In this document: in pieces, positions 15,610-31,202 of the stretch
Position numbering within the stretch: position 1 is the stretch's first letter
How the letters are laid out: every line of letters begins with the position of its first letter
DNA from: an uncultured Gammaproteobacteria bacterium
GTDB lineage: Bacteria; Pseudomonadota; Gammaproteobacteria; Arenicellales; JAANXG01
NCBI GenBank assembly: GCA_947258495.1
Contig: CAMYIN010000085.1
Coordinates: 1 to 42,198 of the forward strand
DNA length: 42,198 bases
Reading direction: 5' to 3'
Position numbers and translations under genes: made by a program
The notes under the pieces: generated by a model
Seen by the model: only the letters and a program-made list of their open reading frames with translations
The model's database searches: none
Told to the model about the DNA's origin: nothing

Positions 15610-16887
15610 ATGTTGGATCCACATGTCCTGAGAAACAACACGGAAACCGTTGCCGCGGCGCTGCGACGCCGCGGGTACGAGCTCGATATCGAGGGTTTCG
15701 CGGAATTGGAAGCGCAGCGGCGAGCGATGCAAACCGAGGTGGAGCGTCTGAGGAATGAACGTAACGTACGTTCGAAGAAAATCGGGCAGGCCAAGGCGCG
15801 CGGAGAGGATATAGATTCTCTGGTCAGCGCCGTCGGCGCTTTGGGGGATCAGCTTAAGGGAGCGGAAAGCGCATTGGAGAATGTACAAAGCGGCCTGCAG
15901 GAACTTTATTATGAGATCCCGAATCTGCCGCACGATTCGGTTCCCGACGGAAACGACGAGTCCGACAATGTAGAAATCAGAAGCTGGGGGAACATACCGG
16001 AACCGGAGTTTGAGCCTTTGGACCACGTCGATCTGGGCGATCGCCTGCAGGGCGTCAACTTCGATCTCGCGGCGAAAATCGCGAAGTCTCGATTCGTAGT
16101 GATATGCGGCCAGTTGGCACGACTGCATCGCGCGTTGATCCACTTCATGCTGGATCTCCATACCGGCGAACACGGCTACAAAGAGTACTACGTGCCTTGC
16201 CTCGCCAATCGTGCAAGTCTGTTCGGCACCGGGCAGCTGCCGAAGTTCTCCGAGGACCAGTTTGCGACTTCAACGGACGAGCTCTTCCTGATACCGACCG
16301 CCGAAGTGCCCCTGACGAATCTGGTGCGCGATACCATCGTGGGGTCTGCGGATCTGCCCATGAAATTGGTGGCGCATACGCCCTGTTTTCGCCGCGAAGC
16401 GGGAAGCTACGGCAAAGACACACGCGGTATGATCCGCCAGCACCAATTTGAAAAGGTAGAGCTCGTGCAGGTGGTCAAGGAAGCGGACTCGTACGCCGTC
16501 CTCGAAGAGCTCACCGGCCACGCCGAGACGGTATTGCGGCGTCTCGAACTGCCGTATCGCGTCGTGGCGCTGTGCACCGGAGACCTCGGGTTCTCGGCGG
16601 CCAAGACCTACGACCTGGAGGTCTGGTTACCCGGGCAGAATAAGTATCGCGAAATATCTTCCTGCAGCAATTTCGAGTCGTTCCAGGCCCGCCGTCTGAA
16701 CGCGCGCTGGAAAGACAAAAAAACGGGCGCGCGGGAGTGGGTGCATACCCTTAATGGGTCCGGTTTGGCCGTAGGCAGAACCCTGGTGGCGATCATGGAA
16801 AATTACCAGCAGGCCGACGGCAGCATTCGCGTGCCGGATGCCCTGGTGAAATACATGAACGGTGTCGAATCCATCGGGGCGGCATGA
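15610..16887 (+). CDS. serS: Seryl-tRNA synthetase
   Basis: A 425-aa class II aminoacyl-tRNA synthetase. The N-terminal coiled-coil arm (about residues 25-105), which holds the tRNA-Ser long variable arm, is charged and leucine-rich. Motif 2 is [21 protein letters not shown] in order, and motif 3 is [17 protein letters not shown] near the C-terminus. Length is normal. It lies 18 nt after the DUF190 gene and ends the housekeeping block; downstream is a 219-nt gap and a probable promoter for the exopolysaccharide genes. Confidence 0.97.
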
Positions 16888-17106: not shown

Positions 17107-18354
17107 ATGCGTAAAACAATAATCGTGGGTATTTTGACCCTCCTCTCGGGAACCTCGATTTCCACGTTGGCGGAAGTGGGGAACGACGTGCATATTCAGT
17201 CCAGCAACGATGCGATTCGATTAGAAATTGACCGCAGGACGTTCAACGAAATTCAAACGTTCCTCAAGTTGGGGTATCCACCGGTCTCGGTGATGTTGCA
17301 CGGCGTGACTCTCGGCGTGACGATCAACGACATGGTATTTCTCGCGGTGAAGTCCGACGTTCGACGGGCCCAGGAGTTTTACGACACCGCGGTTGCTCTG
17401 CTGCCGTCCCTGCCGGGATGGGCGATTCAGGACGAATCGGAGGGCGCGGACAGATATATCGTGGTTTACGAGGCGGGCGAACTTGGGTCCCGGCCTACGG
17501 TCGCCGAGGTGGCGCGGCGGTTTTTCGAAGAAAACAAGCGTTTGGGGCCGCTCCCGGAATGGTTTACGGGCGGGTTCCACGTAAGGGTTTCCATCGACGA
17601 ATTGGCGAACCTTGCGAAAGACGCCTGGTGGTATCAAAGCGGAAATCTACAGCCCGAATCGCTCAGCCATGCATCGAACAGGCCGATTTTCGTTTCTCTG
17701 TATCAAGACAACAACGAGATAATCCTCGACAGCGGTATGCAGCGCATTCAGGACGCGCAACGGCGTGGACTGCAGGATCTACCGGTCGTGTTCATCTTCA
17801 ATGACCGGCGATATCGACCTATCAGCCGCTATGGCGAGGACGTGTCCGTGAAAGAGATCGTCGACGACTTTTTCAATGTCGGACGCAGGCTGACGCCGGT
17901 TCCCGAATGGAAAGTTGGTGATCATCATATGCTGGCGTCGGTGGAGGAACTGAGCCGGATCGTTGAAGCGCTCGATCGAGACGACGTCGATCCAGAGAGG
18001 TGGGCGGCGATTACCGAGGAAATCCGCAGCGCCGGTTTCGATCGACCTTTGCTGCTTTCATTGTTCAATTCCGGCGACGGCAGGGTATGGGCGAACGAAG
18101 CCGATCGTCTCGCGGCGGCGATCGAGATGGGTCTGGACGAAATCCCGGTGGTGTTCTTTTACCACGACATCGGGCGCCTGCCCTGCGGCGATCCCATCCG
18201 CTCCACGGCTTTGATATGTAGCGCCGCGATCGCCGCAGGCGGCGATCCGGCAATCTGCGAACCGCCGCGGCCAAGGGTCGAGGGTTTCGTTTCGCCCGGA
18301 GGAGGGGGAGGTTTCACGCCGACGCCCACGCCGCCGGAACCGCCGAGTCGTTAG
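17107..18354 (+). CDS. Secreted protein of unknown function with a tandem ParB/sulfiredoxin-like repeat
   Basis: A 415-aa protein, not recognised as a named family. Residues 1-22 look like a signal peptide. An N-terminal part (about 35-110) contains LKLGYPPVSVMLHGVTLGV. Then two similar units follow, 130-240 and 246-358. Both have an FF..x..RL.P.PEW segment (139-152; 255-268), a second-strand S..EL segment, and a closing unit: NRPIFVSL...SGMQRIQDAQRRGLQDLPVVFIF and DRPLLLSL...NEADRLAAAIEMGLDEIPVVFFY. The closing units resemble the R..AA...G...PV core of ParB N-domain/sulfiredoxin-like folds; this is inference. The tail is Gly/Pro rich (SPGGGGGFTPTPTPPEPP). Start ATG 17107 has GGGAG upstream. 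It heads the exopolysaccharide block, suggesting an accessory periplasmic or surface role. Confidence 0.75.
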   Translation: MRKTIIVGILTLLSGTSISTLAEVGNDVHIQSSNDAIRLEIDRRTFNEIQTFLKLGYPPVSVMLHGVTLGVTINDMVFLAVKSDVRRAQEFYDTAVALLPSLPGWAIQDESEGADRYIVVYEAGELGSRPTVAEVARRFFEENKRLGPLPEWFTGGFHVRVSIDELANLAKDAWWYQSGNLQPESLSHASNRPIFVSLYQDNNEIILDSGMQRIQDAQRRGLQDLPVVFIFNDRRYRPISRYGEDVSVKEIVDDFFNVGRRLTPVPEWKVGDHHMLASVEELSRIVEALDRDDVDPERWAAITEEIRSAGFDRPLLLSLFNSGDGRVWANEADRLAAAIEMGLDEIPVVFFYHDIGRLPCGDPIRSTALICSAAIAAGGDPAICEPPRPRVEGFVSPGGGGGFTPTPTPPEPPSR

Positions 18355-18383: not shown

Positions 18384-19742
18384 ATGAACTCGAATAGGTA
18401 TAGCCGCAGGGACGGCGTCGCCGCGTCAAAGGCCGGCTTTGTCGTCTCGATCCTGGCTCCGTGCGCCGCGCTATACGCGGTTTCATCGACCGCCCAGGAA
18501 AACGTCGACACCGAGGACCTGCCTGCGCAGGAACTGACCTTCGGCGTGCCGCCCGCGGCCCACACCCAGGGAATGCTCACGCCCCTGCCGGACGCCCTGC
18601 GAGACGAATTGCGCGGTTTTTTTCCATCGCTTACGCTGGGCCTTCAATATCACACGAATGTTCGGCGGACTCCGGGCTTCGAAGAAAGCGATCTGGCGTT
18701 CGTCATCGCACCGGAGCTCGCCTACCGAACCCGCTTCAATGGAAGGCACGGAGGAGAAATTCGATACTCGGCGAATTTTCTGCGATATCGTGATCTGGAT
18801 GACGAAGACGTCACCAACCATAGTCTGGATGGGGCGTTGCGTTTCGACCTGTCGCCGAAGCTCGATGTTCGTCTGTTCGGGCAGTACAGCGATGCGCAGG
18901 AAGAACGGGGGGCATCCGGAACTCGAACGTTTACCGACGAGCAACCCGACGAAGTGGAAGTGCTCAGGTACGGCGGCGAAATCATATTGGGGCGACCGAC
19001 CCAGGCGCTGCAGTTCGCCGTGGGATTAACGCGATCCGATTGGGACTACCAGAACAACGATCAGCAGTTCCGCAATCGGCGGAACGACCGTATCCACGGA
19101 ATACTGTTTTATAACCTCAGTCCCAAAACCTCATTGTTTCTCGAAGCCAATCACACCGACATCGATTATGACGACGATGCCGCGGGACTGGACAGCGAAG
19201 AAGACGTCTATTACCTCGGCGCTCGCTGGCGCGCATCGGCAACGCTGGACGCACTGTTCAAAATCGGCGACCTGGAAAAGGAGATGAGCGATCCGGCCTT
19301 CAATGATTTTGACGGCACTTCCTATCTCGGAAAACTGGTATGGCAGATGCGGCCGTTCAGCCGCATTCAAATATTAGCTTCTCGAACCACCGAGGAGAGC
19401 GCACAGCAATCGCGCGGAGATCCCGAGGCCGCGGCGGGCGAACTGACCGATCCATACTACGTAAGTCGCCTCATCGGCCTGCACTGGGCCCACGACCTCA
19501 GTACGCGTTGGCGATTGTACGCATTTTTCAATCATACCGAGGACGACTACCCGAACGATCGGGACGATACGATAAAGGACCTCGGGATCGGGCTCAGCTA
19601 CCGATTCAGCAGGTGGTTGACCGTGACCGCGCAGTACGGCGACACGGAGCGGGATTCCAACGATCCTGCGGTGGAATACGAGGACCAATCCTTCACGCTT
19701 CTGCTGCGAAGCGATTTTTCGCTGGGTGGGAAAACGCGTTAG
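18384..19742 (+). CDS. Outer-membrane beta-barrel protein of an exopolysaccharide locus (BBP2/VpsM-like)
   Basis: A 452-aa protein with an N-terminal signal peptide (about residues 1-37, ending STAQ) and then many alternating polar/hydrophobic strands joined by acidic turns, for example LTLGLQYHTNVRRTPGF, LAYRTRFNGRHGGEIRYS and LGIGLSYRFSRWLTVTAQYG. The last strand is QSFTLLLRSDFSLGG. This is the pattern of the beta-barrel porin 2 family often encoded beside Wza-like genes (EpsL, VpsM). It probably provides the outer-membrane passage for the polymer. It precedes the Wza-like gene by 46 nt to that gene's preferred ATG. The number of strands was not computed. Confidence 0.78.
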   Translation: MNSNRYSRRDGVAASKAGFVVSILAPCAALYAVSSTAQENVDTEDLPAQELTFGVPPAAHTQGMLTPLPDALRDELRGFFPSLTLGLQYHTNVRRTPGFEESDLAFVIAPELAYRTRFNGRHGGEIRYSANFLRYRDLDDEDVTNHSLDGALRFDLSPKLDVRLFGQYSDAQEERGASGTRTFTDEQPDEVEVLRYGGEIILGRPTQALQFAVGLTRSDWDYQNNDQQFRNRRNDRIHGILFYNLSPKTSLFLEANHTDIDYDDDAAGLDSEEDVYYLGARWRASATLDALFKIGDLEKEMSDPAFNDFDGTSYLGKLVWQMRPFSRIQILASRTTEESAQQSRGDPEAAAGELTDPYYVSRLIGLHWAHDLSTRWRLYAFFNHTEDDYPNDRDDTIKDLGIGLSYRFSRWLTVTAQYGDTERDSNDPAVEYEDQSFTLLLRSDFSLGGKTR

Positions 19743-19788
19743 AATCTATACTTAGTGGTTGACACGCGACTTTGATCACCCCGAGTCT

Positions 19789-20673
19789 ATGGGTAAATGG
19801 CTAGTATTGGTTTCAGCGCTGCTGTGGCAAGCACCGGCCGTTTCCGGCTCAGTGACCGGCATCGCACTCGCACCGATCGACTTGGATTACCGTTTTCAGC
19901 ACCGGACCGGGACGCAGGGAACGGGATCGGGGCAAGTGCGCGCAACGCCCGCTGCCGGTACCTCCTACGTAACGGGCGAATATCGGATATCCCCGGGTGA
20001 CGTGATCAGCGTTCGCGTCTTCGGGGAGCCTGATCTGAGCCTGGAGCGAGTGCGTGTCCCCGCGGACGGATTGATCTCTTATCCTCTTCTCGGACAGATC
20101 CTGGTCGACGGTCATACCGTGCGTTCCCTCGAGCGGCGATTTACCGCGATGTTGCGAAACGGGTACTTGCGAAAGCCCACCGTATCGGTGAGCATCGTCG
20201 AATATCGTCCGGTTTTCGTCAAAGGCGGCGTCAACAATGCCGGAGCACACGAATATGCGGAGGGATTGAACGTGGAAAAGGCGATCGCGCTCGCCGGGGG
20301 TCTGTCGAAATCAGGCAGAAAGGAAGGCACCACGGTGCTGCGGGAAAACGACTCCGTAGCGAGCGTGGGTCTGCATCATCCCGTGTTCCCCGGCGATGTG
20401 ATCACGATTCCCGAGGTGGCGGAAATCGAATCAAAGGAATTCATCTATCTCTACGGAGAGGTCAAGCAGCCGGGAAGCTACGAATTCAGAAAGGGATTGA
20501 CGGTGGAAAAGGCTCTGGCGCTGGCGGGTGGGTTCAGCGATCGCGCCTCGAAGCGTAAGATAGAAATATCGCGTGAAGACCGGAACGGCGACCAGGTCAG
20601 ACTCAAGAAGGTCTCCTTGAATCTACCCATAGAGGCCGGCGACGTGATCACCGTCGGGGCGAGTCTTTTTTGA
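19789..20673 (+). CDS. Wza-like polysaccharide export protein with SLBB domains, not a lipoprotein
   Basis: A 294-aa periplasmic protein. Residues 1-20 or so are a signal peptide (WLVLVSALLWQAPAVSG). The polysaccharide export domain begins YRISPGDVISVRVFGEPDLS and is followed by two SLBB-like units, FVKGGVNNAGAHEYAEGLNVEKAIALAGG and IYLYGEVKQPGSYEFRKGLTVEKALALAGG in order. There is no lipobox and no cysteine anywhere, and no C-terminal membrane helix as in E. coli Wza. It therefore cannot form the Wza outer-membrane pore and may rely on the neighbouring beta-barrel. The ATG at 19789 places the signal peptide at the N-terminus; TTG 19759 would add ten polar residues before it. Confidence 0.88.
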   Translation: MGKWLVLVSALLWQAPAVSGSVTGIALAPIDLDYRFQHRTGTQGTGSGQVRATPAAGTSYVTGEYRISPGDVISVRVFGEPDLSLERVRVPADGLISYPLLGQILVDGHTVRSLERRFTAMLRNGYLRKPTVSVSIVEYRPVFVKGGVNNAGAHEYAEGLNVEKAIALAGGLSKSGRKEGTTVLRENDSVASVGLHHPVFPGDVITIPEVAEIESKEFIYLYGEVKQPGSYEFRKGLTVEKALALAGGFSDRASKRKIEISREDRNGDQVRLKKVSLNLPIEAGDVITVGASLF

Positions 20674-22751
20674 AAAAATCCAATATTAAACTTCAATCGG
20701 TGCCGCAATCTGGCAGTATCGGCAACGCTTCGTTTCCGATGATTTCGCCGCACGACTCCGACGCCAAGATCCACATTGGCGAGTACCTTGACGTCATCAA
20801 GCGATACAAATGGAGCATCCTGGTGCTCGCGCTGCTGGGCGCGGTGGTCGGTGGCCTGAAAGCGGTTTCCGAGGTTCCGGTGTACCGCGCGACTACCACT
20901 ATGGTCGTAGAACCGGATTTCTCCTCGTTGGCTTCGGCGAAAAAAGGCGCGGTCGTCTACGCAACCGCATGGCGCTTCTACGAGACGCAGTACGATTTGC
21001 TCCGCAGCCGCGCCGTGGCGGCGCGGGTCGTGGACAAGCTCGGTCTGGTGGAGAGAGGAACGCCGAAACCTCGCCCCGCTATATCCTTCGTATCCGAACT
21101 CAAAAAGATGTTCGGGATGGAATCGACATCCGATTCGAAGAGCGCGCACGCCACAACGACGCTGGGCCCCGAACAGCTGAAACGGGTACGCAGCGGCATT
21201 GCGGCGATGATACAGGGCAGTGTGAATGTGCGCGGCGGGGAAAAAAGCCAGTTGGTGTATGTTTCGTTTGATTCAACGGACGCCAAGTTCGCCGCAGACG
21301 TTGCGAACGCACTGGTGGACGCTTACATAGACCTGGAACTCGAGTCCCGTCTGGACCGTGCCAAGCTGGCGAGCAGTTGGTTGACGGAGAGGTTGACGGA
21401 GTTGCGGGAAAAACTGACGCAGTCGGAGCAGCAATTGCAGACGTTTCAGTCCAGAGAGGGGATGGTCGATCTAAAAAGCATCGAAGAGCTCACCAGCAAA
21501 GAATTGGGACTGCTGAATCAGGAACTGGTCGCCGCCGAGGCGAAGTATTCGGAACTCGCGAAGCGTTACGGTCCCAAGCACCCGAGAATGATAGCGGCGC
21601 TTGCGGAATTGAACGCCACCAAGCGCCGTCTCGAGGACGCGTCAAAACGTGTTGTCAACGCTCGCGGAAAAGAATTTCAGTTGGATAAACTTGAACGCGA
21701 CGTAGGCGCTAGTAGAGAGTTGTATGGCGTGTTCCTGAGTAAGTTTCGGGAGGCCGATTTATCGGTGGATAAGCAGTTGAGCAGTGCCCGTACTGTTGAC
21801 AAAGCGCTGCCGCCGAGGGCGCCATTCAAACCGGACAAGACCAAGATTCTGACGATGTGGGCGCTGATAGGCTTGAGTTTCGGCGTGTTCCTGGCCTTCT
21901 TGCGGGAACATCTGGACAATACGTTTTCTTCCACCGAAAAAGTGGAGCAGAAGTTGAATCTTCCCGTGCTCGGTGTCATGCCGCTGCTGAATATCAAGGA
22001 TTTGAGAACAAAAAAGGAAACGGCTGCGTCGTCCGTATCCGAAACAATGGCGCCCGAGCGGTATTTTATACATGAAAAAAAGTCGTCCTTTTCAGAAGCC
22101 GTAAATCATATTCGCACCGGAATCATGTATTCCAATGTGGACAATCCGCCGAAAAGCATATTGATAACTTCGTCTCTGCAAGCGGAAGGTAAAACCACCT
22201 TGGCGACAAATCTCGCGATGTCCATGGCACAGCTAGGGAAAACCCTGCTCATTGACGCGGACTTCCGAAAACCCAAATTTGCGGCAGGCCTCTCGAATTC
22301 GAGTGGGAACGGGCTGGTGGATTACGTCGCCGGAACCGGTTCCCTGAATGATTGTATCGTGGCGGACGATGAATGCCCGGATTTGTATGTTCTCGAGAGC
22401 GGCGTGGTGCCCCCCAATCCTTTGGAACTGCTTTCGTCCAAGCGTCTGGCCCGTACACTCGGCGAACTGAATGATAATTTTGCGCACGTCGTAATCGACA
22501 CGGCGCCGATATTACCGGTAAGCGACGCTATTGTTCTGGGTCATCTGGTCGACGCGGTGCTGATGGTGATTCAATCCGGGCGCACGACCCAGCACATCGT
22601 ACGAGACGCCATGCGCCGTTTGGACGGAGCCAATATCACCCCCCTGGGCATCGTTCTGACCCAGGTATCGTTCCAGAAGAACTCGTATTATTACGGCGGT
22701 AAGTATCACTACTACTACGGGTCCACGACCGCCGCACGCAAAGCCTCGTAG
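20670..22751 (+). CDS. Polysaccharide copolymerase fused to BY-type tyrosine autokinase (Wzc/VpsO-like)
   Basis: A 693-aa inner-membrane protein. Wzz domain: first helix about 49-67, a periplasmic coiled-coil section about 225-345, a PPRAPFKPDK motif at 381-390 and a second helix 393-411. Cytoplasmic kinase: Walker A SSLQAEGKTT (501-510), Walker A' LLIDADFRKP (526-535), Walker B VVIDTAP (607-613). The tail has a tyrosine cluster YYYGGKYHYYYG (673-684), the usual autophosphorylation site. It controls polymer length and export. The TTG start at 20670 overlaps the upstream stop (TTGA); ATG at codon 24 is an alternative. No partner tyrosine phosphatase (Wzb) is in the window. Confidence 0.93.
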   Translation: MKKSNIKLQSVPQSGSIGNASFPMISPHDSDAKIHIGEYLDVIKRYKWSILVLALLGAVVGGLKAVSEVPVYRATTTMVVEPDFSSLASAKKGAVVYATAWRFYETQYDLLRSRAVAARVVDKLGLVERGTPKPRPAISFVSELKKMFGMESTSDSKSAHATTTLGPEQLKRVRSGIAAMIQGSVNVRGGEKSQLVYVSFDSTDAKFAADVANALVDAYIDLELESRLDRAKLASSWLTERLTELREKLTQSEQQLQTFQSREGMVDLKSIEELTSKELGLLNQELVAAEAKYSELAKRYGPKHPRMIAALAELNATKRRLEDASKRVVNARGKEFQLDKLERDVGASRELYGVFLSKFREADLSVDKQLSSARTVDKALPPRAPFKPDKTKILTMWALIGLSFGVFLAFLREHLDNTFSSTEKVEQKLNLPVLGVMPLLNIKDLRTKKETAASSVSETMAPERYFIHEKKSSFSEAVNHIRTGIMYSNVDNPPKSILITSSLQAEGKTTLATNLAMSMAQLGKTLLIDADFRKPKFAAGLSNSSGNGLVDYVAGTGSLNDCIVADDECPDLYVLESGVVPPNPLELLSSKRLARTLGELNDNFAHVVIDTAPILPVSDAIVLGHLVDAVLMVIQSGRTTQHIVRDAMRRLDGANITPLGIVLTQVSFQKNSYYYGGKYHYYYGSTTAARKAS

Positions 22752-22775: not shown

Positions 22776-23459
22776 TTGGTCCGCACTGTATATTTAGCGG
22801 TAATCGTCGTCGCTACCGCCCTGATCGTCTGGTCCGGGATATCCATATGGACCTGGAACGCCATTCGCGAATCGGAGCAGTATCTTGCCGACTTGGCAGA
22901 GCGCGGGTCAACGGAAGACCCCGGGGAATGGGAGCGACAGCTTGTACGGCTGCAACGGGCGGCACGATGGAATCCGGGGGACGCATGGGTTTCCATGCGC
23001 CTGGCCCGACTCTACCAGTGGCGTGCCTACGAGCAGAGGCTGTGGTCCGAACTTGCCACACGATCGCGGCAACAGGTGATAGATCATATCAGACGTGCGA
23101 CGCGCCAGAGACCTTCCTGGGGTTTGACCTGGGCGGCCCTCTCGGCCGCGAAGGTCGATGCCGGCGAGATCGACGACGAAATGCTGGCGGCGTTGAGCAG
23201 GGCCGTGGATCTGGGCCCGTGGGAACGGCAGGTGCAGCACCAGGTGATCTCGGCGGGCATCCGCGCATGGGGCGGCTTGCCGGATCCCATGCGGCAATCA
23301 ATACTGAACATGGTACGGCGCGGTCTGAAAGACCCAACGCTCATTGCGCACATTATGGATATCGCTATTCAAAACAACTGGCAGGGTCAGCTTGAGCGGT
23401 TCATCACAGACGACGATCAACTCGAGATCCAGTTTAAGGCGGCGCTAGCCAGAAATTAG
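22776..23459 (+). CDS. VpsP-like polysaccharide biosynthesis membrane protein
   Basis: A 227-aa protein with one N-terminal membrane helix (about residues 5-27, rich in V, I, A, W) and a helical, tryptophan-rich C-terminal part that looks TPR-like: WERQLVRLQRAARWNPGDAWVSMRLARLY. The layout and place, after a Wzc-like kinase and before an O-antigen ligase, match the VpsP family of Vibrio exopolysaccharide loci. Function is unknown. The only suitable start is TTG 22776, without a clear ribosome binding site; it lies 24 nt after the kinase gene. The ligase gene follows 2 nt later. Confidence 0.7.
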   Translation: MVRTVYLAVIVVATALIVWSGISIWTWNAIRESEQYLADLAERGSTEDPGEWERQLVRLQRAARWNPGDAWVSMRLARLYQWRAYEQRLWSELATRSRQQVIDHIRRATRQRPSWGLTWAALSAAKVDAGEIDDEMLAALSRAVDLGPWERQVQHQVISAGIRAWGGLPDPMRQSILNMVRRGLKDPTLIAHIMDIAIQNNWQGQLERFITDDDQLEIQFKAALARN

Positions 23460-23461
23460 GC

Positions 23462-24880
23462 ATGATCGACAGAGCGCTGGAATATTCTGCAAGGGTCATA
23501 GACTTTGGTTGTTACGCGGCGATATTACTTCTGGCCGTCTGGCTTCCGATCCCGTACGGCAGTAAACCGACGTGGTCGATACATCTGTTGCAGGTGGTGG
23601 TGTTCGGCACTTTGTTGCTATGGGCGTTCGGCAAGTTGTTGAAGCCGTCGATGCCCACGGTCAGCTGGAGACCTCTCGGCCCCATCCTCGCGCTGATGTT
23701 GATTTGGCTGTTGTATCAACTGTTCCAGGCGACTCCGCTTCCGTTCAGTCTGGTGAAAGTGCTCAGCCCGGGGGCCTACGACTTGTATCAGGCGGCTTCG
23801 GGCGAACGGCAGATCGCAACACATGCCATCAGCCTTGATCGATACAACACCCTGCAGGAGGCAACCAAATACAGTACTTATGTAGCGCTCTTCGTGCTCG
23901 TCTTCGCCCTGGTCCATACACGCATGCGCCTGTTGACGCTCGCCTATACCTTGTTCCTGGTCGGATTTTTCCAGTCCGTTTTCGGCTTATATGCCCTGTT
24001 CACGGATACGATCCCGGTAGATCGGGAGGTGCTGGAGGGGCACCGATGGGTGTCCGGCACATTTTTGAACCGCAATCATTTCGCCGGCCACCTACTGCTC
24101 ACGACGGGTGTCGGTCTCGGCTTGTTACTGAGCAGCCATGATCCGGTGAGACCGTGGCGCGGGATGCGAAACATCGTTTTCAATCTTGCGGACCTGCTGC
24201 TTCGACCGAACGGTTGGATTTTCATATGCCTGGTTGTTTTGCTGTCTGCCCTGTTCCTCAGCGAATCCCGCGGCGGCGTGTTATCGTTGATTGCGTCGTT
24301 GCTGATAGTGTGGTTTTTGGTACGGTCGAGGGACCAAAAGACCCATCGCGCGTCGCGGCTTGCCGTGACTGCCGGCGCCGCTATGTTGCTGGCCGGTATC
24401 TGGTTCGGTGTGGGAACGTTGATGTCGCGGTTCCATGAGATGGGGAACGATGAACGAATAGAGCAGTGGAAATTGACGGCCGAGATGACGGCGGATTATC
24501 CGGTTGTCGGAATCGGCGGCGGAAACTACCAATGGGTGTTCCCGCGATATCGCAACGGCAACCTCAGGCTGCGCACCTACGATCATGCCCATTCGGATTA
24601 CCTGGAAACGCTGGTAGAACAAGGAATTGTGGGAACGGCGATCCTGGGACTGGCAATCGGCGTCGTATTTTTTAAACTGGTAAAAGTGTATCAGCCCGAA
24701 ACGTCTTCATTCACCAAGAACGCCGCCACCGGCGTGCTGGTTTCAATAACTGGACTACTCGTACACGCTGCAATGGATTTCAACTTCAGAATACCGGCCA
24801 ATGCCGCCTACTTTTACATCATAGCTGCTTTGGGCATGTCGGCGATGGCGATGGATCGTAAACTAAAACATCCGGCATGA
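23462..24880 (+). CDS. O-antigen ligase/polymerase-like membrane protein (Wzy_C family)
   Basis: A 472-aa polytopic inner-membrane protein with roughly ten to twelve hydrophobic helices. The conserved region is near the middle: [21 protein letters not shown] and [17 protein letters not shown]. The large periplasmic loop contains [15 protein letters not shown] and [16 protein letters not shown], a typical WaaL/Wzy_C pattern (His and Tyr near the substrate site). It transfers or polymerises lipid-linked glycan at the periplasmic face; polymerase and ligase cannot be told apart from sequence alone. It overlaps the next gene by 4 nt (ATGA). Confidence 0.85.
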
Positions 24881-25936: not shown

Positions 25937-27831
25937 ATGTGTGGATTGGCGGCGATCGCCCGCTACAACGATTCGTCGGGCGTTTCCCGGAGGGAAATCG
26001 TCGCCATACGCGATCGCATGCAGAACCGGGGTCCGGACGGGCGCGGGCTGTGGATTCGGGATCGCGTGGCGCTGGCGCACACCCGACTGTCAGTCATTGA
26101 CCTCAGCGCGGCCGCGGCGCAACCCATGATCGATAAAACTAACAAGAACGTTATTGTTTTCAACGGTGAAATCTACAACTACCTGGAGCTGAAGCATCGG
26201 TTGAAGAAGAAAGGGTACCGCTTCTTTTCCCATAGCGATACAGAGGTGCTGTTGTATCTATATCGCGAGAAAGGTTCGCGAATGCTGGACGATCTGCGTG
26301 GAATGTTTGCGTTCGTGATCTGGGATGCCGAACAGGAATCCGTTTTCTGTGCGCGCGATCCGTACGGCATCAAGCCGCTGTATTTTTGCGACGACGGCAA
26401 GTCGCTGCGCATCGCCTCGCAGGTCAAGGCACTGCGCGCGGGCGGAGCGGTGTCCGGCGAACTCGATCCGGCGGGGTTGTGCGGATTTTATCTGTTCGGT
26501 CATATACCGGAACCTTTTACGTCTTACCGCGCTATCCGCGCACTCCCCGCCGGCAGCCTGCTGCACTGCCGGCTGGGCGCCAAACCCGTGATCCACACCT
26601 ATTTTTCAATCGCGGAAACATATCGCCGCGCGTCCCTGGAAGAAAAATCTTCGTGGGATCCGGGCCGGGCGGCGGATGCGATACGCAGTTCGGTTGCGCG
26701 GCATCTGACGGCGGATGTCCCCGTCGGCGTCTTCCTCTCGGCGGGACTGGATTCCGGGGCGGTGCTGGGACTGATGCGGGACGCTCACAGCGAGTCGATA
26801 ACGGCGCTGACACTCGCCTTCGACGAATACAGAGGCACGAGAGACGACGAGGAACCGTTGGCGGCACAGGTTGCGCGCCGCTACGGCGCCCGGCATGTTG
26901 CGCGCTCCTATTCCTGCGCCGATATCCAGGAGTTGATTCCGGAATTCTTTGCCGCGATGGACCAGCCTTCCATAGACGGTCTCAATACCTGGCTGTTGAG
27001 CAGGGTCGCAGGTAAACAGGGATTGAAAGTTGTGCTTTCCGGTCGAGCCCTTCGACCCGCGCCGCTTCCCGCAGGCACGCGGCATGGCGCTCCTCGTCCT
27101 CATGCTCGTTCTGGCGGCGGCTCTCGTGATCGTCATCCTTCGCCGACGCACCGCGCGGCGCCGGCATGCTGGCCGCGGTAAACCGATCGTCGAAGCTGCA
27201 AGCCGTATCGCGGTCCTGCATTCGTATGCTTCGGCGCTGCGGCGTACCGCTGCACCCGAAGACGGAGGGCGTGATGCTGTTCGCCGGCACGCACGCGGGT
27301 GTGTATCTGCTGCGACGGGGATTGTTCATGCCGTGGGAGTTGCCGCAGCTGCTGGGTTCGGAAATCGCCGCGGAGGGCCTGGCCGTCCTGGCTCCCCTGG
27401 AGCATCTGAATCGGGGTATGGATCCCGATCCGGGTACGCAGTTCGGTCGCGCCGCCGCCTTGGAGTCGAGTTTTTATCTGCGCAACCAGTTGCTTCGCGA
27501 CGCGGACTGGGCGGGAATGGCGCATTCGGTGGAAATCAGAACGCCGCTGGTCGACGCTACGCTCCTCAAGACTTTGGCGCCGGATCTGGTTTCGGGGGAC
27601 GCCCTCAAGCGCAAAGAACTGCTCGCGGACGCACCGACGCGGCCACTGCCGTCGCCCGTAAGGAATAGAAAGAAGACCGGTTTTAACGTGCCCGTCGCAA
27701 GATGTCTGACTTCCGATGGCGCGCTGAACGGCTGGAGCCGCGTGCCCGTGCTCGCTGATCGGCGATGTCCGTGGGCCCGAAGATGGGCGCATACGGTGTT
27801 TTCCAACGTGGTTCACCCGGCGATATCGTAG
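25937..27831 (+). pseudogene. asnB: Asparagine-synthase-type glutamine amidotransferase, disrupted in the synthetase domain
   Basis: The first part (25937 to about 27043) encodes MCGLAAIA with catalytic Cys2, NRGPDG, FNGEIYNY and the pyrophosphate loop SAGLDS near residue 267, ending at GLKVVLSG. The expected GGDELFGGY motif then fails: the frame runs on with unrelated residues to a stop at 27179-27181. The C-terminal part resumes in a different frame from about 27130 (SSFADAPRG), and includes AGVYLLRRGLFMPWELP-like and ESSFYLRNQLLRD, AHSVEIRTPLVD. Roughly 90 nt stand where about 30 nt are expected, with a stop (27127-27129) in the second frame. It looks inactive, or the sequence is wrong here. 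The family aminates or amidates sugars or makes asparagine. Confidence 0.85.
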
Positions 27832-27855: not shown

Positions 27856-29055
27856 ATGGAAACCGAGGGCGCGGCCGTTGCCGAGATGGATCGCGGCGCG
27901 AGAGCTGAAAACGATGTCGCGCGCAGCAGGATATTGTTTGTCTCCCAGGGGCTCACGTGCGAAGGCGGCATTGCAAGTGTGGCGCGATCGGTCGCGTACG
28001 CGCTGGACGAAACCGCACTCTGCGGACGCATGCGGGCGGTCGACAGGGTGCTGGTCAATGATCGCGCTGCCGATCCTCCGACACAACCCACCAAAGGCAT
28101 ACAGATACTTGCCGGGGCGAACAAGCTTCGTGCGGTCTGGTCCGTGTGGCGTTTGTCGCAATCGGTTGGATACGATCTGATATTGTTCGATCATATCGGA
28201 CCCGCGCGCATTATGACGCTGCCGCTTCCCGGCATCTCTTCTCGGCGTTACGCGGTGTTCATATACGGGATAGAACTGGATAATCTAAAACCGGGAACAC
28301 GCGCATACCGTGCCTTGCTCGGCGCCGACAAGGTTCTCACCATCTCGCTGTACACCGCCTCGCGTATACGTCGGGTTGCGAGCGAGACTGCATCACGCAT
28401 AGTGCCCATACCTTTATGTGTCGAACCCGCGCGCGCGGCTCGCTGGCGACGCAATGTTGACGAACCCGGATTTGTGCGTACGGACCCGGTCGCTCTAATT
28501 GTGGCTCGCATGGACGCCAGAGAGCGCGGCAAGGGTCACGATCATCTGATCGAGGCGTGGTCCCGCGTACATGCAGAGATGCCGGAGGCGCGCCTGTGGA
28601 TCGTCGGTGACGGCGACGATCGCCCCCGCTACGAGGACAAAGTTCGCCGGCTTGGCTTGGAAGAAGCCGTCGAATTTTTGGGGCGTGTCGACGATGACAC
28701 CCTTGGCGATCTGTATCGGCGCGCGTCGATCTTCGTCATGCCCAGTCGTCAGGAAGGGTTCGGCATCGTCTACGCGGAGGCTATGTGGCACGGACTCCCG
28801 TGCATTGCGTCCCGGGACGACGCCGCCCGTGAGATCATCGACGAGGGACGGAACGGAGTGACGGTCGGTTACGGTGACGTCAGCGGGCTCTACGAGAAAT
28901 TGATGGGGTGTTTGCGCGACCCGGAACTCGTCGCACGTCTTGGAAAGGTCGCGCGCGCACAAGCGCTCGAACGATTCAGCTATGACCGATTCAAGCACGA
29001 TCTGATCGAAGCGCTTGCGCTGCAGCCCGGGAATTCGCCGAAACCTGAAAATTGA
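27856..29055 (+). CDS. Glycosyltransferase, GT4 type
   Basis: A 399-aa GT-B fold enzyme. The N-terminal domain starts SRILFVSQGLTCEGGIASVARSV, an acceptor-side glycine-rich loop. The C-terminal domain has LIVARMDARERGKGHDHLIEAW, RLWIVGDGDDRPRYE and the EX7E motif EGFGIVYAE in SRQEGFGIVYAEAM. It likely transfers a sugar from a nucleotide donor to the lipid-linked glycan on the cytoplasmic face; the sugar is unknown. Start ATG 27856 has AGAAGG five nt upstream; GTG 27850 is the alternative. The stop overlaps the Wzm start by 4 nt. Confidence 0.9.
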   Translation: METEGAAVAEMDRGARAENDVARSRILFVSQGLTCEGGIASVARSVAYALDETALCGRMRAVDRVLVNDRAADPPTQPTKGIQILAGANKLRAVWSVWRLSQSVGYDLILFDHIGPARIMTLPLPGISSRRYAVFIYGIELDNLKPGTRAYRALLGADKVLTISLYTASRIRRVASETASRIVPIPLCVEPARAARWRRNVDEPGFVRTDPVALIVARMDARERGKGHDHLIEAWSRVHAEMPEARLWIVGDGDDRPRYEDKVRRLGLEEAVEFLGRVDDDTLGDLYRRASIFVMPSRQEGFGIVYAEAMWHGLPCIASRDDAAREIIDEGRNGVTVGYGDVSGLYEKLMGCLRDPELVARLGKVARAQALERFSYDRFKHDLIEALALQPGNSPKPEN

Positions 29056-29909
29056 GTAACGGTAACGAAAATAACCGCGGCTACTTCAGCGCCGATCGCG
29101 TTACCGTGATAGAGCCGACTGCGGGCTGGCGCCTGCCCGACGTCGGCGAACTTTGGGCGTATCGGGAACTGCTCTGGGTCCTTGGCCTGCGCGATATAAA
29201 AATACGCTACAAGCAGACGGTCCTCGGCATCGGCTGGGCTCTGATACAGCCGATCATGACCATGATCATATTTTCGATCATATTCGGACGGTTGGCGCAA
29301 ATCCCTTCGGAAGGTTTTCCCTATCCGATTTTCGTCTATGCAGGCTTGCTCCCCTGGATGTTCTTTGCGAATTCCGTCAACGCATCATCGGTGTCCATAG
29401 TCGGGTCGTCACAGCTCGTGAGCAAAGTCTATTTTCCGCGTCTGATCATTCCGATGTCCTCGATAGGCGCCGGACTGGTGGATTTCGCCGTCGCAAGCAC
29501 CGTATTGCTGATGATGATGTGGTACTACGGCATTTCGTGGTCGGTGAATCTGATGTTCGCGCCCGTATTGACCCTCGGCGTCATGTTTGCTGCCGTTGGC
29601 GTGGGAACGTGGTTGTCGGCGGTTACGGTCGCGTACAGGGATTTCCGTTATGTCATTCCGTTTCTGGTGCAGATATGGATGTTCGTCTCTCCCGTGATCT
29701 ATCCGCCAAGCATCGTTTCGGACAACTGGCGTTGGGTTCTGTTTCTGAATCCGCTCACCGGATTGATCGACGGTTTTCGGGCCGCCTTTCTGGGAAAACC
29801 CATTGACTTCGTGTCCATGGCGACGGCGCTGGCCGTGTCGTTGATCATCTTCTTGTTCGGCTTGATCTATTTCGGAAAAGTGGAGAGGCGATTCGCCGAT
29901 ATCATATGA
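29052..29909 (+). CDS. wzm: ABC polysaccharide/O-antigen exporter, permease
   Basis: A 285-aa ABC-2 permease of the TagG/Wzm/KpsM type. A cytoplasmic N-terminus with WAYRELLWVLGLRDIKIRYKQT leads into about six membrane helices, among them LIQPIMTMIIFSIIFG, VDFAVASTVLLMMMWYY and FLVQIWMFVSPVIYP. It moves undecaprenyl-linked glycan across the inner membrane with the ATPase encoded next. The start is TTG 29052, overlapping the preceding stop (TTGA). No alternative start lies before the first conserved region except further in. Confidence 0.93.
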   Translation: MSNGNENNRGYFSADRVTVIEPTAGWRLPDVGELWAYRELLWVLGLRDIKIRYKQTVLGIGWALIQPIMTMIIFSIIFGRLAQIPSEGFPYPIFVYAGLLPWMFFANSVNASSVSIVGSSQLVSKVYFPRLIIPMSSIGAGLVDFAVASTVLLMMMWYYGISWSVNLMFAPVLTLGVMFAAVGVGTWLSAVTVAYRDFRYVIPFLVQIWMFVSPVIYPPSIVSDNWRWVLFLNPLTGLIDGFRAAFLGKPIDFVSMATALAVSLIIFLFGLIYFGKVERRFADII

Positions 29910-29951
29910 ACGGACGTTGGCGGTTGAGCGCGGAATCTTCGCTCATGAGCG

Positions 29952-31202
29952 ATGATTAAAGTCGAGAGTCTGGGGAAGCAGTACGTGGTGGGTGGCGAAG
30001 CCCGTCGCACGACTTCGTTCCGCGAACTCCTGAGCGGTTTGCTTCTGTCGCCGCTGCGAAGATGGAGACAATTGCGGGGTATCGATCGGACGCAGGAACG
30101 TTTCTGGGCGCTGCAAGACGTTACGTTTTCCGTCGAAGAAAAGGAAGTTGTCGGCATCATTGGTCGGAACGGCGCAGGCAAGAGCACACTGTTGAAGGTC
30201 CTGAGTCGGATTACCAGTCCTACGACGGGCAGAGTGACGCTGCGTGGTCGGGTTTCAAGCCTGCTCGAGGTAGGCACCGGTTTTCATCCGGAACTGTCGG
30301 GCAGGGAGAACATCTTTCTGAACGGTGCAATATTGGGAATGACGCGGAACGAGATCCAGGGCAGGTTCGACGAGATCGTCGAATTTGCCGAGGTCGAACG
30401 CTTCATCGACACTCCGATAAAGAGATACTCGAGCGGCATGTTCGTGCGCCTGGCGTTTTCGGTAGCCGCGCACTTGGAGACGGACATCCTGCTGGTCGAC
30501 GAAGTGCTGGCCGTCGGCGACGCGGTCTTTCAGCAACGCTGTCTGGGCAAGATGCAGGATGTGGCCCGCGGAGGTAGGACGGTGCTGTACGTCAGCCACA
30601 ATATGGGATCGGTTGCCACGCTTTGCGATCGAGCGATATTGTTGCACGCCGGGCGAGTCACCTACGACGGCGTTGCCGAAGAAGCGATTCGCAGATACAT
30701 GGCCGAATCGCACGCAAAAAACGGAGAGTTGAAGCAACATTCGTTCCGCGGCCAGCTCGCTCGCGCCATCCGATTCCATAATATACAGGTTAATGGAAAA
30801 TCATTGTCGGACGATCTGGTGTTTCATCCCCGGGACAATATCGTGATCAGGTTCGAAGGATCCGCCCTGCAGCGGTTTCAACATATCAATCTTTCCGTGG
30901 CCATTTTTCAATCTGGTGTCCGTATATTGACCCTGCAAGATGCAGAAGAGGGAACCGCCCTGCAGCCCGGCAGTTTTCGGTCGGAAGTCTCGATCCCGCC
31001 GCTGTTGCTGCGTCCGGGCGTCTATTCCATATGGTTGGGCGCGCACAGGAAGGGAGACGGACAGTGGGTGTGGGGCGAAGATCTCGTCCAGTTCATAGTC
31101 CTGGAAGAGTGGGGCGACAACTACGAAGAAAGAAACAAAGGCCTCGTCAATATTGCCGGCGTGGGCAGCAGGCACGGCGCTGAGGACGATTACCGCGCGT
31201 GA
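29952..31202 (+). CDS. wzt: ABC polysaccharide/O-antigen exporter, ATPase with C-terminal carbohydrate-binding domain
   Basis: A 416-aa protein. ATPase domain: Walker A GRNGAGKST (71-79), signature YSSGM (159-163), Walker B ILLVDEVLAVGD (179-190). The linker ends near residue 255, and a beta-rich C-terminal domain (about 265-400; VFHPRDNIVIRFEG, LLLRPGVYSIWLGAH) matches Wzt_C, which in Wzt of E. coli O9a binds the capped glycan end. This suggests export of a chain with a recognised terminal modification. The methyltransferase gene that overlaps downstream by 4 nt (GTGA) could make such a cap, by inference. Confidence 0.94.
   Translation: MIKVESLGKQYVVGGEARRTTSFRELLSGLLLSPLRRWRQLRGIDRTQERFWALQDVTFSVEEKEVVGIIGRNGAGKSTLLKVLSRITSPTTGRVTLRGRVSSLLEVGTGFHPELSGRENIFLNGAILGMTRNEIQGRFDEIVEFAEVERFIDTPIKRYSSGMFVRLAFSVAAHLETDILLVDEVLAVGDAVFQQRCLGKMQDVARGGRTVLYVSHNMGSVATLCDRAILLHAGRVTYDGVAEEAIRRYMAESHAKNGELKQHSFRGQLARAIRFHNIQVNGKSLSDDLVFHPRDNIVIRFEGSALQRFQHINLSVAIFQSGVRILTLQDAEEGTALQPGSFRSEVSIPPLLLRPGVYSIWLGAHRKGDGQWVWGEDLVQFIVLEEWGDNYEERNKGLVNIAGVGSRHGAEDDYRA

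Follow-up and report, generated by a model that had tools for sequence, protein, structure and literature searches.

A protein with a signal peptide and tandem ParB/sulfiredoxin-like domains encoded at the head of a composite polysaccharide exporter operon

The stretch of DNA considered here (the window) is 42,198 nucleotides of a contig (CAMYIN010000085.1, GenBank assembly GCA_947258495.1) from an uncultured gammaproteobacterium of the order Arenicellales. Its gene at 17107-18354 on the forward strand is an open reading frame of 415 amino acids with an ATG start, and it opens the operon of a composite polysaccharide exporter of the outer-membrane polysaccharide export (OPX)/beta-barrel type. 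A Sec-like signal peptide starts the protein; behind it come a helical domain, two tandem repeats and a tail, and the repeats are assigned the ParB/sulfiredoxin (Srx) fold. This domain is best known from intracellular DNA-segregation and redox-repair proteins, and most work on it concerns its role as a nucleotide switch of the cytoplasm. The parts of the protein are the following.

17107..17172, forward strand: Sec-like signal peptide, residues 1-22 (cleavage between STLA and EVG), placed by the hydropathy maximum and by crude-rule starts in family rows
17212..17442, forward strand: N-terminal all-helical domain, residues 36-112, from the structure model
17452..17838, forward strand: repeat 1, ParB/sulfiredoxin-like fold, residues 116-244, with GMQR at the P-motif position
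17839..18186, forward strand: repeat 2, ParB/sulfiredoxin-like fold, residues 245-360, with EADR at the P-motif position
18187..18354, forward strand: C-terminal tail with Cys371 and Cys384, a Gly-rich stretch and a Pro-rich end

The original prediction, which was made from the DNA letters, called the protein secreted, and the features of its start bear this out. A short basic n-region is followed by residues 5-15, whose mean Kyte-Doolittle value of 2.44 is the highest of any 11-residue window in the protein, and then by a plausible cleavage site without a lipobox Cys. Under a crude, permissive rule, signal-peptide-like starts are also present in 31 of the 35 other rows of the family alignment, and three of the four failing rows have no N-terminus. 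This alignment (A2) holds 36 of 40 frames, leaving out near-duplicate L008, L011 (undetermined bases) and two N-terminal pieces of split genes; its window row covers residues 22-390. Smaller sets were taken for A3 (35 of the 36 rows, L057 out), A4 (22 of 36, with L083 and the rows carrying a long repeat-2 insertion out), A5 (25 of 34) and the tree (26 of 36).

The first ~110 residues have no profile similarity to the repeats or to ParB (hhalign), and the N-terminal domain is therefore not a third repeat. Its profile (A5), searched against 109 genomes of the order at E <= 0.001, found members or fragments of this protein family exclusively, and against the PDB it found designed helical proteins (2e-6 to 1e-4), through short parts of which no stretch passed alone.

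The two repeats are homologous, as had been claimed at first. Family profiles of residues 113-244 and 245-360 align with Prob 99.6 and E 3.9e-24 (hhalign), and score 133.8 over 104 columns, whereas none of 30 column shuffles exceeded 23.7, which rules out a repeat arising by chance or low complexity. Separately made alignments gave Prob 99.65 and E 4e-25, and the repeat-2 profile (22 rows, the window's own repeat 2 included) retrieves repeat 1 of the window protein at E 1.2e-14. The predicted order of secondary structure is the same in both repeats, but a helix at model positions 275-288 of repeat 2 is absent from repeat 1. In 13 rows of one genus of the same order (g6; L031-L043), an insertion of ~40-60 residues separates the two central strands of repeat 2, and these proteins have a CASPPC motif near the C-terminus.

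Three lines of evidence agree on the fold of the repeats, and on these grounds we consider the ParB/sulfiredoxin assignment supported. First, the family profile finds true ParB proteins in other genomes via repeat 2. Second, both repeats align to the ParB profile well above column shuffles, repeat 2 over 61 columns with Prob 95.5 and with the GxxxPVVV end included. Third, when the predicted structures were compared with known folds, most hits were to Srx, ParB, Noc and SerK, with moderate scores. The core of the superfamily, alpha+beta with a strand-strand-helix-strand end, is accordingly found in the models, in the fold lists at those moderate scores and in the shuffled profile tests. In single-family searches, the window protein scores 12.9 bits against Pfam ParB_N (PF02195), whose gathering cut-off is 26.3, and PF02195 matches two of the 36 rows at E up to 1 (best 0.084). 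A single-sequence search of the PDB with the protein gave no match, and the sole match of the repeat-1 profile there was PNP oxidase (E 0.31). That the resemblance to ParB is an effect of chance or composition, hiding a different true fold, is nevertheless very improbable, as the sequence profiles, the shuffle controls and the fold comparison all indicate one family. A role in chromosome partition is ruled out; the ParB matches of the profile are separate genes elsewhere in those genomes.

Each known relative shares the fold and departs from the window protein in its own way. The ParB N-terminal domain (the ParB-CTPase fold, PF02195) is the partner of the 61-column alignment, whereas the window protein has a signal peptide, tandem copies, an eroded GERR motif, no matched helix-turn-helix or dimerisation domain, and a score below gathering. 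The free serine kinases SbnI and SerK resemble repeat 2 both by profile (SbnI at E 2.1e-4) and in the fold lists, where structures of both appear, but the window protein is secreted and tandem, with its phosphate motif altered. Sulfiredoxin differs by its GCHR cysteine: neither repeat has a Cys at these positions, and the only three cysteines of the protein (360, 371 and 384), all near its C-terminal end, fall outside the motif.

The GERR box of ParB (P motif, Box II) binds nucleotide phosphates. At the aligned positions repeat 1 has GMQR and repeat 2 has EADR, so that the GERRxR phosphate motif of ParB partition proteins is missing from the window protein. By manual reading, GxxR stands in register in repeat 1 of 13 of the 36 rows and in repeat 2 of one (a looser scripted pattern gave 15 and 1); the rows keeping it in repeat 1 are five of the same genus and eight of the 13 rows L031-L043. 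The window protein also has no helix-turn-helix match in Pfam at E up to 1, unlike the cytoplasmic ParB proteins. Nucleoside triphosphates are scarce in the periplasm. Given this and the eroded motif, the nucleotide chemistry has probably been lost, and NTPase activity appears unlikely. The boxes of the fold are described in sections of PMC12704722.

A different set of residues is conserved. The motif P-x-P-x-W-x2-G-x2-H...E lies ahead of each ParB-like core, and repeat 1 adds W175-Y176; E165 and W175 are present in 36/36 rows, and H158 and Y176 in 35/36. Such residues could form the site (P-x-P-x-W-x2-G-x2-H...E-L plus W-Y) of a periplasmic enzyme that trims or modifies the polymer, which would fit the location of the gene within a polysaccharide operon. 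We regard this as improbable, since the window protein reached the cut-off of no glycan-active family, a single row of the 36 matched GH26 (E 0.15), and the recurrence of a similar motif without W-Y in repeat 2 fits a structural motif.

The gene had been placed at the head of an exopolysaccharide (EPS) block, and the genes around it confirm this position.

15610..16887, forward strand: upstream flank gene, which we take to be seryl-tRNA synthetase
18384..19742, forward strand: outer-membrane beta-barrel (BBP2_2, EpsL-like), the next gene, 29 bp downstream (PF10082, E 4.7e-38; EpsL TIGR03014, E 8.2e-16, below cut-off)
19759..20673, forward strand: OPX (Wza-like) export protein with Poly_export and two SLBB stretches (EpsE TIGR03028, E 5.4e-40, below cut-off)
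20670..22751, forward strand: Wzc-like polysaccharide co-polymerase/tyrosine autokinase, from family profile matches
22776..23459, forward strand: VpsP-like polysaccharide biosynthesis protein (NF038257, E 1.8e-19, below cut-off)
23462..24880, forward strand: Wzy-type polymerase/O-antigen ligase family protein (PF04932, E 9.9e-22)

A composite translocon pairs a short OPX protein, which has no pore of its own, with an outer-membrane barrel, and such pairs are reported from 10 phyla (as given in parts of PMC9601211). The window has this combination: an adjacent barrel gene and an OPX protein without a C-terminal helix, judged by length only (304 aa, with the SLBB_2 match reaching residue 299). 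It thus resembles the EpsY/EpsX and VpsN/VpsM systems as those parts of PMC9601211 present them, which likewise have a short OPX protein with no room for the helix, an outer-membrane barrel and a Wzy/Wzc-type cluster. It differs in that the gene directly before the barrel encodes an extra exported protein with the ParB/Srx fold. Its OPX protein is also longer than the 280-aa cut-off used there, and the two SLBB stretches may correspond to the D1D2D2 type.

The association with the barrel holds well beyond this window. Barrel matches at E <= 1e-10 were found in 31 of the 109 order genomes, from eight families, by a search that would miss more divergent barrels, and all 31 carry the protein. It is present in four of the 78 genomes without a barrel match, namely G014 and G032 (short or broken) and G035 and G037 (of a paralogue type described below), and the co-occurrence has a Fisher p of 3e-23 with relatedness ignored. 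Conversely, the five genomes in which OPX was hit (E <= 1e-20) and the barrel was not, namely G006, G033, G050, G062 and G069, are all without the protein. In 30 of the 31 genomes the two genes share contig and strand, with the barrel downstream and the matches 32-766 bp apart; in the other, G067, they are on different contigs. The order gene, barrel, OPX, Wzc is repeated across families. Of 19 EPS-type loci read, the barrel gene adjoins in 18 and the nineteenth stops at a contig edge; two of them, L047 and L056, gave identical matches and are seemingly one sequence, and others duplicate order genomes under a second name. A homologue of the upstream flank gene precedes the ParB/Srx-fold gene in 16 of the 19 (2-3 kb off in L079 and L050), and the other three have <= 1.5 kb of upstream sequence.

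Homologues occur in nine of the 13 genomes of the same taxonomic family (own genome counted), and the profile matched 37 of the 109 order genomes, or 35 without G006 and G009, which were found via ParB only. Matches in 18 of 369 genomes of the class comprise the own genome, three other order members, 12 ParB matches and two true relatives (G218 and G432) from one family outside the order, where the gene adjoins the barrel too. Among 398 genomes across the phylum, there was one weak match (E 8e-4) besides the own genome. The protein had no match in plasmids, and a mobile or phage gene is ruled out: five pattern matches occurred in viral contigs, where tblastn, which detects close relatives only, found no relative. 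Family members split by a stop over two frames occur in G037 (L025/L078) and in G014, both genomes without a barrel match, and this may mean that the gene decays in genomes lacking the exporter.

Family members at five loci (L051, L054, L055, L077 and L078) have no barrel or OPX homologues nearby. In the first four of these, the family member directly follows genes encoding a CHASE2-nucleotide cyclase and a FecR protein, the FecR gene of L051 being broken into two frames. In the tree, the five paralogue rows (G007, G012, G035, G036 and G037) fall on one side of a branch with support 99/96 and in 200/200 bootstrap trees, and the EPS-linked and paralogue forms are therefore separate lineages. 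ParB/Srx domains are ligand-binding modules, and this favors a role as periplasmic ligand sensor, in which the tandem domains would bind a small molecule or the exported polymer and report polymer load to the exporter, and the paralogue would do likewise for the cyclase through FecR. The position of the paralogue just 3' of the cyclase and FecR genes in 4/5 loci points the same way, and clusters of CHASE2 cyclases with FecR-domain proteins in Campylobacterota are a likely signalling pathway according to portions of PMC9239204. We consider a sensor possible but rather unlikely: the searched window genes gave no match to a cyclase or FecR family, and the stop-split paralogue of G037 (L078) has genes for a PurL-type enzyme and a DUF6524 protein upstream instead. 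Paralogue, cyclase and FecR together may form an independent signalling unit, and would offer a second, testable place to learn the ligands of these domains.

For the EPS-linked form, an accessory role in the translocon is the best reading, because an exported protein is closely linked to the barrel. In this model, to which we give about an even chance, the protein would be a periplasmic (or periplasm-facing), non-catalytic accessory of the composite OPX/beta-barrel exporter. After export by Sec it would fold into a helical domain at the N-terminus and, behind it, two sulfiredoxin/ParB-type domains, which, with their eroded phosphate-binding motif, would probably act as non-catalytic binding modules, while the Pro-rich tail would reach out from the folded body. 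Most likely, it would assemble the BBP2_2 barrel and the pore-less OPX ring, or gate them, during polymer passage. The export role, which the original prediction had offered as inference, gains support from the operon position and barrel co-occurrence; these are computed, as are the export signal (by the crude rule), the fold, the repeat and the motif erosion. Several points weigh against the model. Contact with the barrel or OPX protein is presumed from linkage; the second lineage has mostly signalling genes for neighbours and no barrel or OPX homologues there, so that the family serves more than the exporter; the near-invariant E165, W175, H158 and Y176 of repeat 1 could be a binding or catalytic site; and with one weak match in 397 other phylum genomes, such exporters can evidently work without the protein.

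A more elaborate version of the accessory model, which we hold only tentatively and consider doubtful, is that of an undescribed third exporter component: a periplasmic doubled ParB/sulfiredoxin domain that has lost nucleotide use and serves as a gate or sensor. In the clades that keep GxxR, the phosphate pocket of repeat 1 might hold a diphosphate (e.g., of a lipid-linked glycan carrier), and the sister lineage would be wired to CHASE2-FecR cyclic-nucleotide signalling.

Exported proteins with a ParB-type fold have precedents in Tox-ParB and Tox-ParBL1, secreted toxin domains described in parts of PMC3482391. Those are toxin modules, whereas the window protein is a conserved operon member. 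That it is itself a secreted ParB-type nuclease or toxin, as in polymorphic toxin systems, is extremely improbable, because the DGHHR-like motif is mostly lost in this family, no toxin delivery family matched in the protein, and the gene is tied to the exporter operon across families. What is new is the secreted, tandem form; the fold and the kind of operon are known. We found no description of such a protein in the titles and abstracts listed by our literature searches, and the main text of a 2025 survey of the fold (PMC12704722) has no words starting with periplasm, signal peptide, secret or exopolysaccharide. If the model is correct, a conserved, exported, exporter-linked family takes the ParB/Srx fold to a new compartment outside toxins, and an extra subunit is indicated for a recently recognised route of polysaccharide export.

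Two other features of the cluster were observed. An asparagine-synthase-like gene at 25937-27831 appears split in two frames, with 25937-27181 corresponding to the first part of the family and the overlapping frame 27166-27831 to a later part; its counterpart at L050:18277-20190 is a single frame of 638 aa. Genes for an ABC-2 permease and an ABC ATPase lie at 29052-31202 within the Wzy/Wzc/OPX cluster, where two kinds of export may be mixed.
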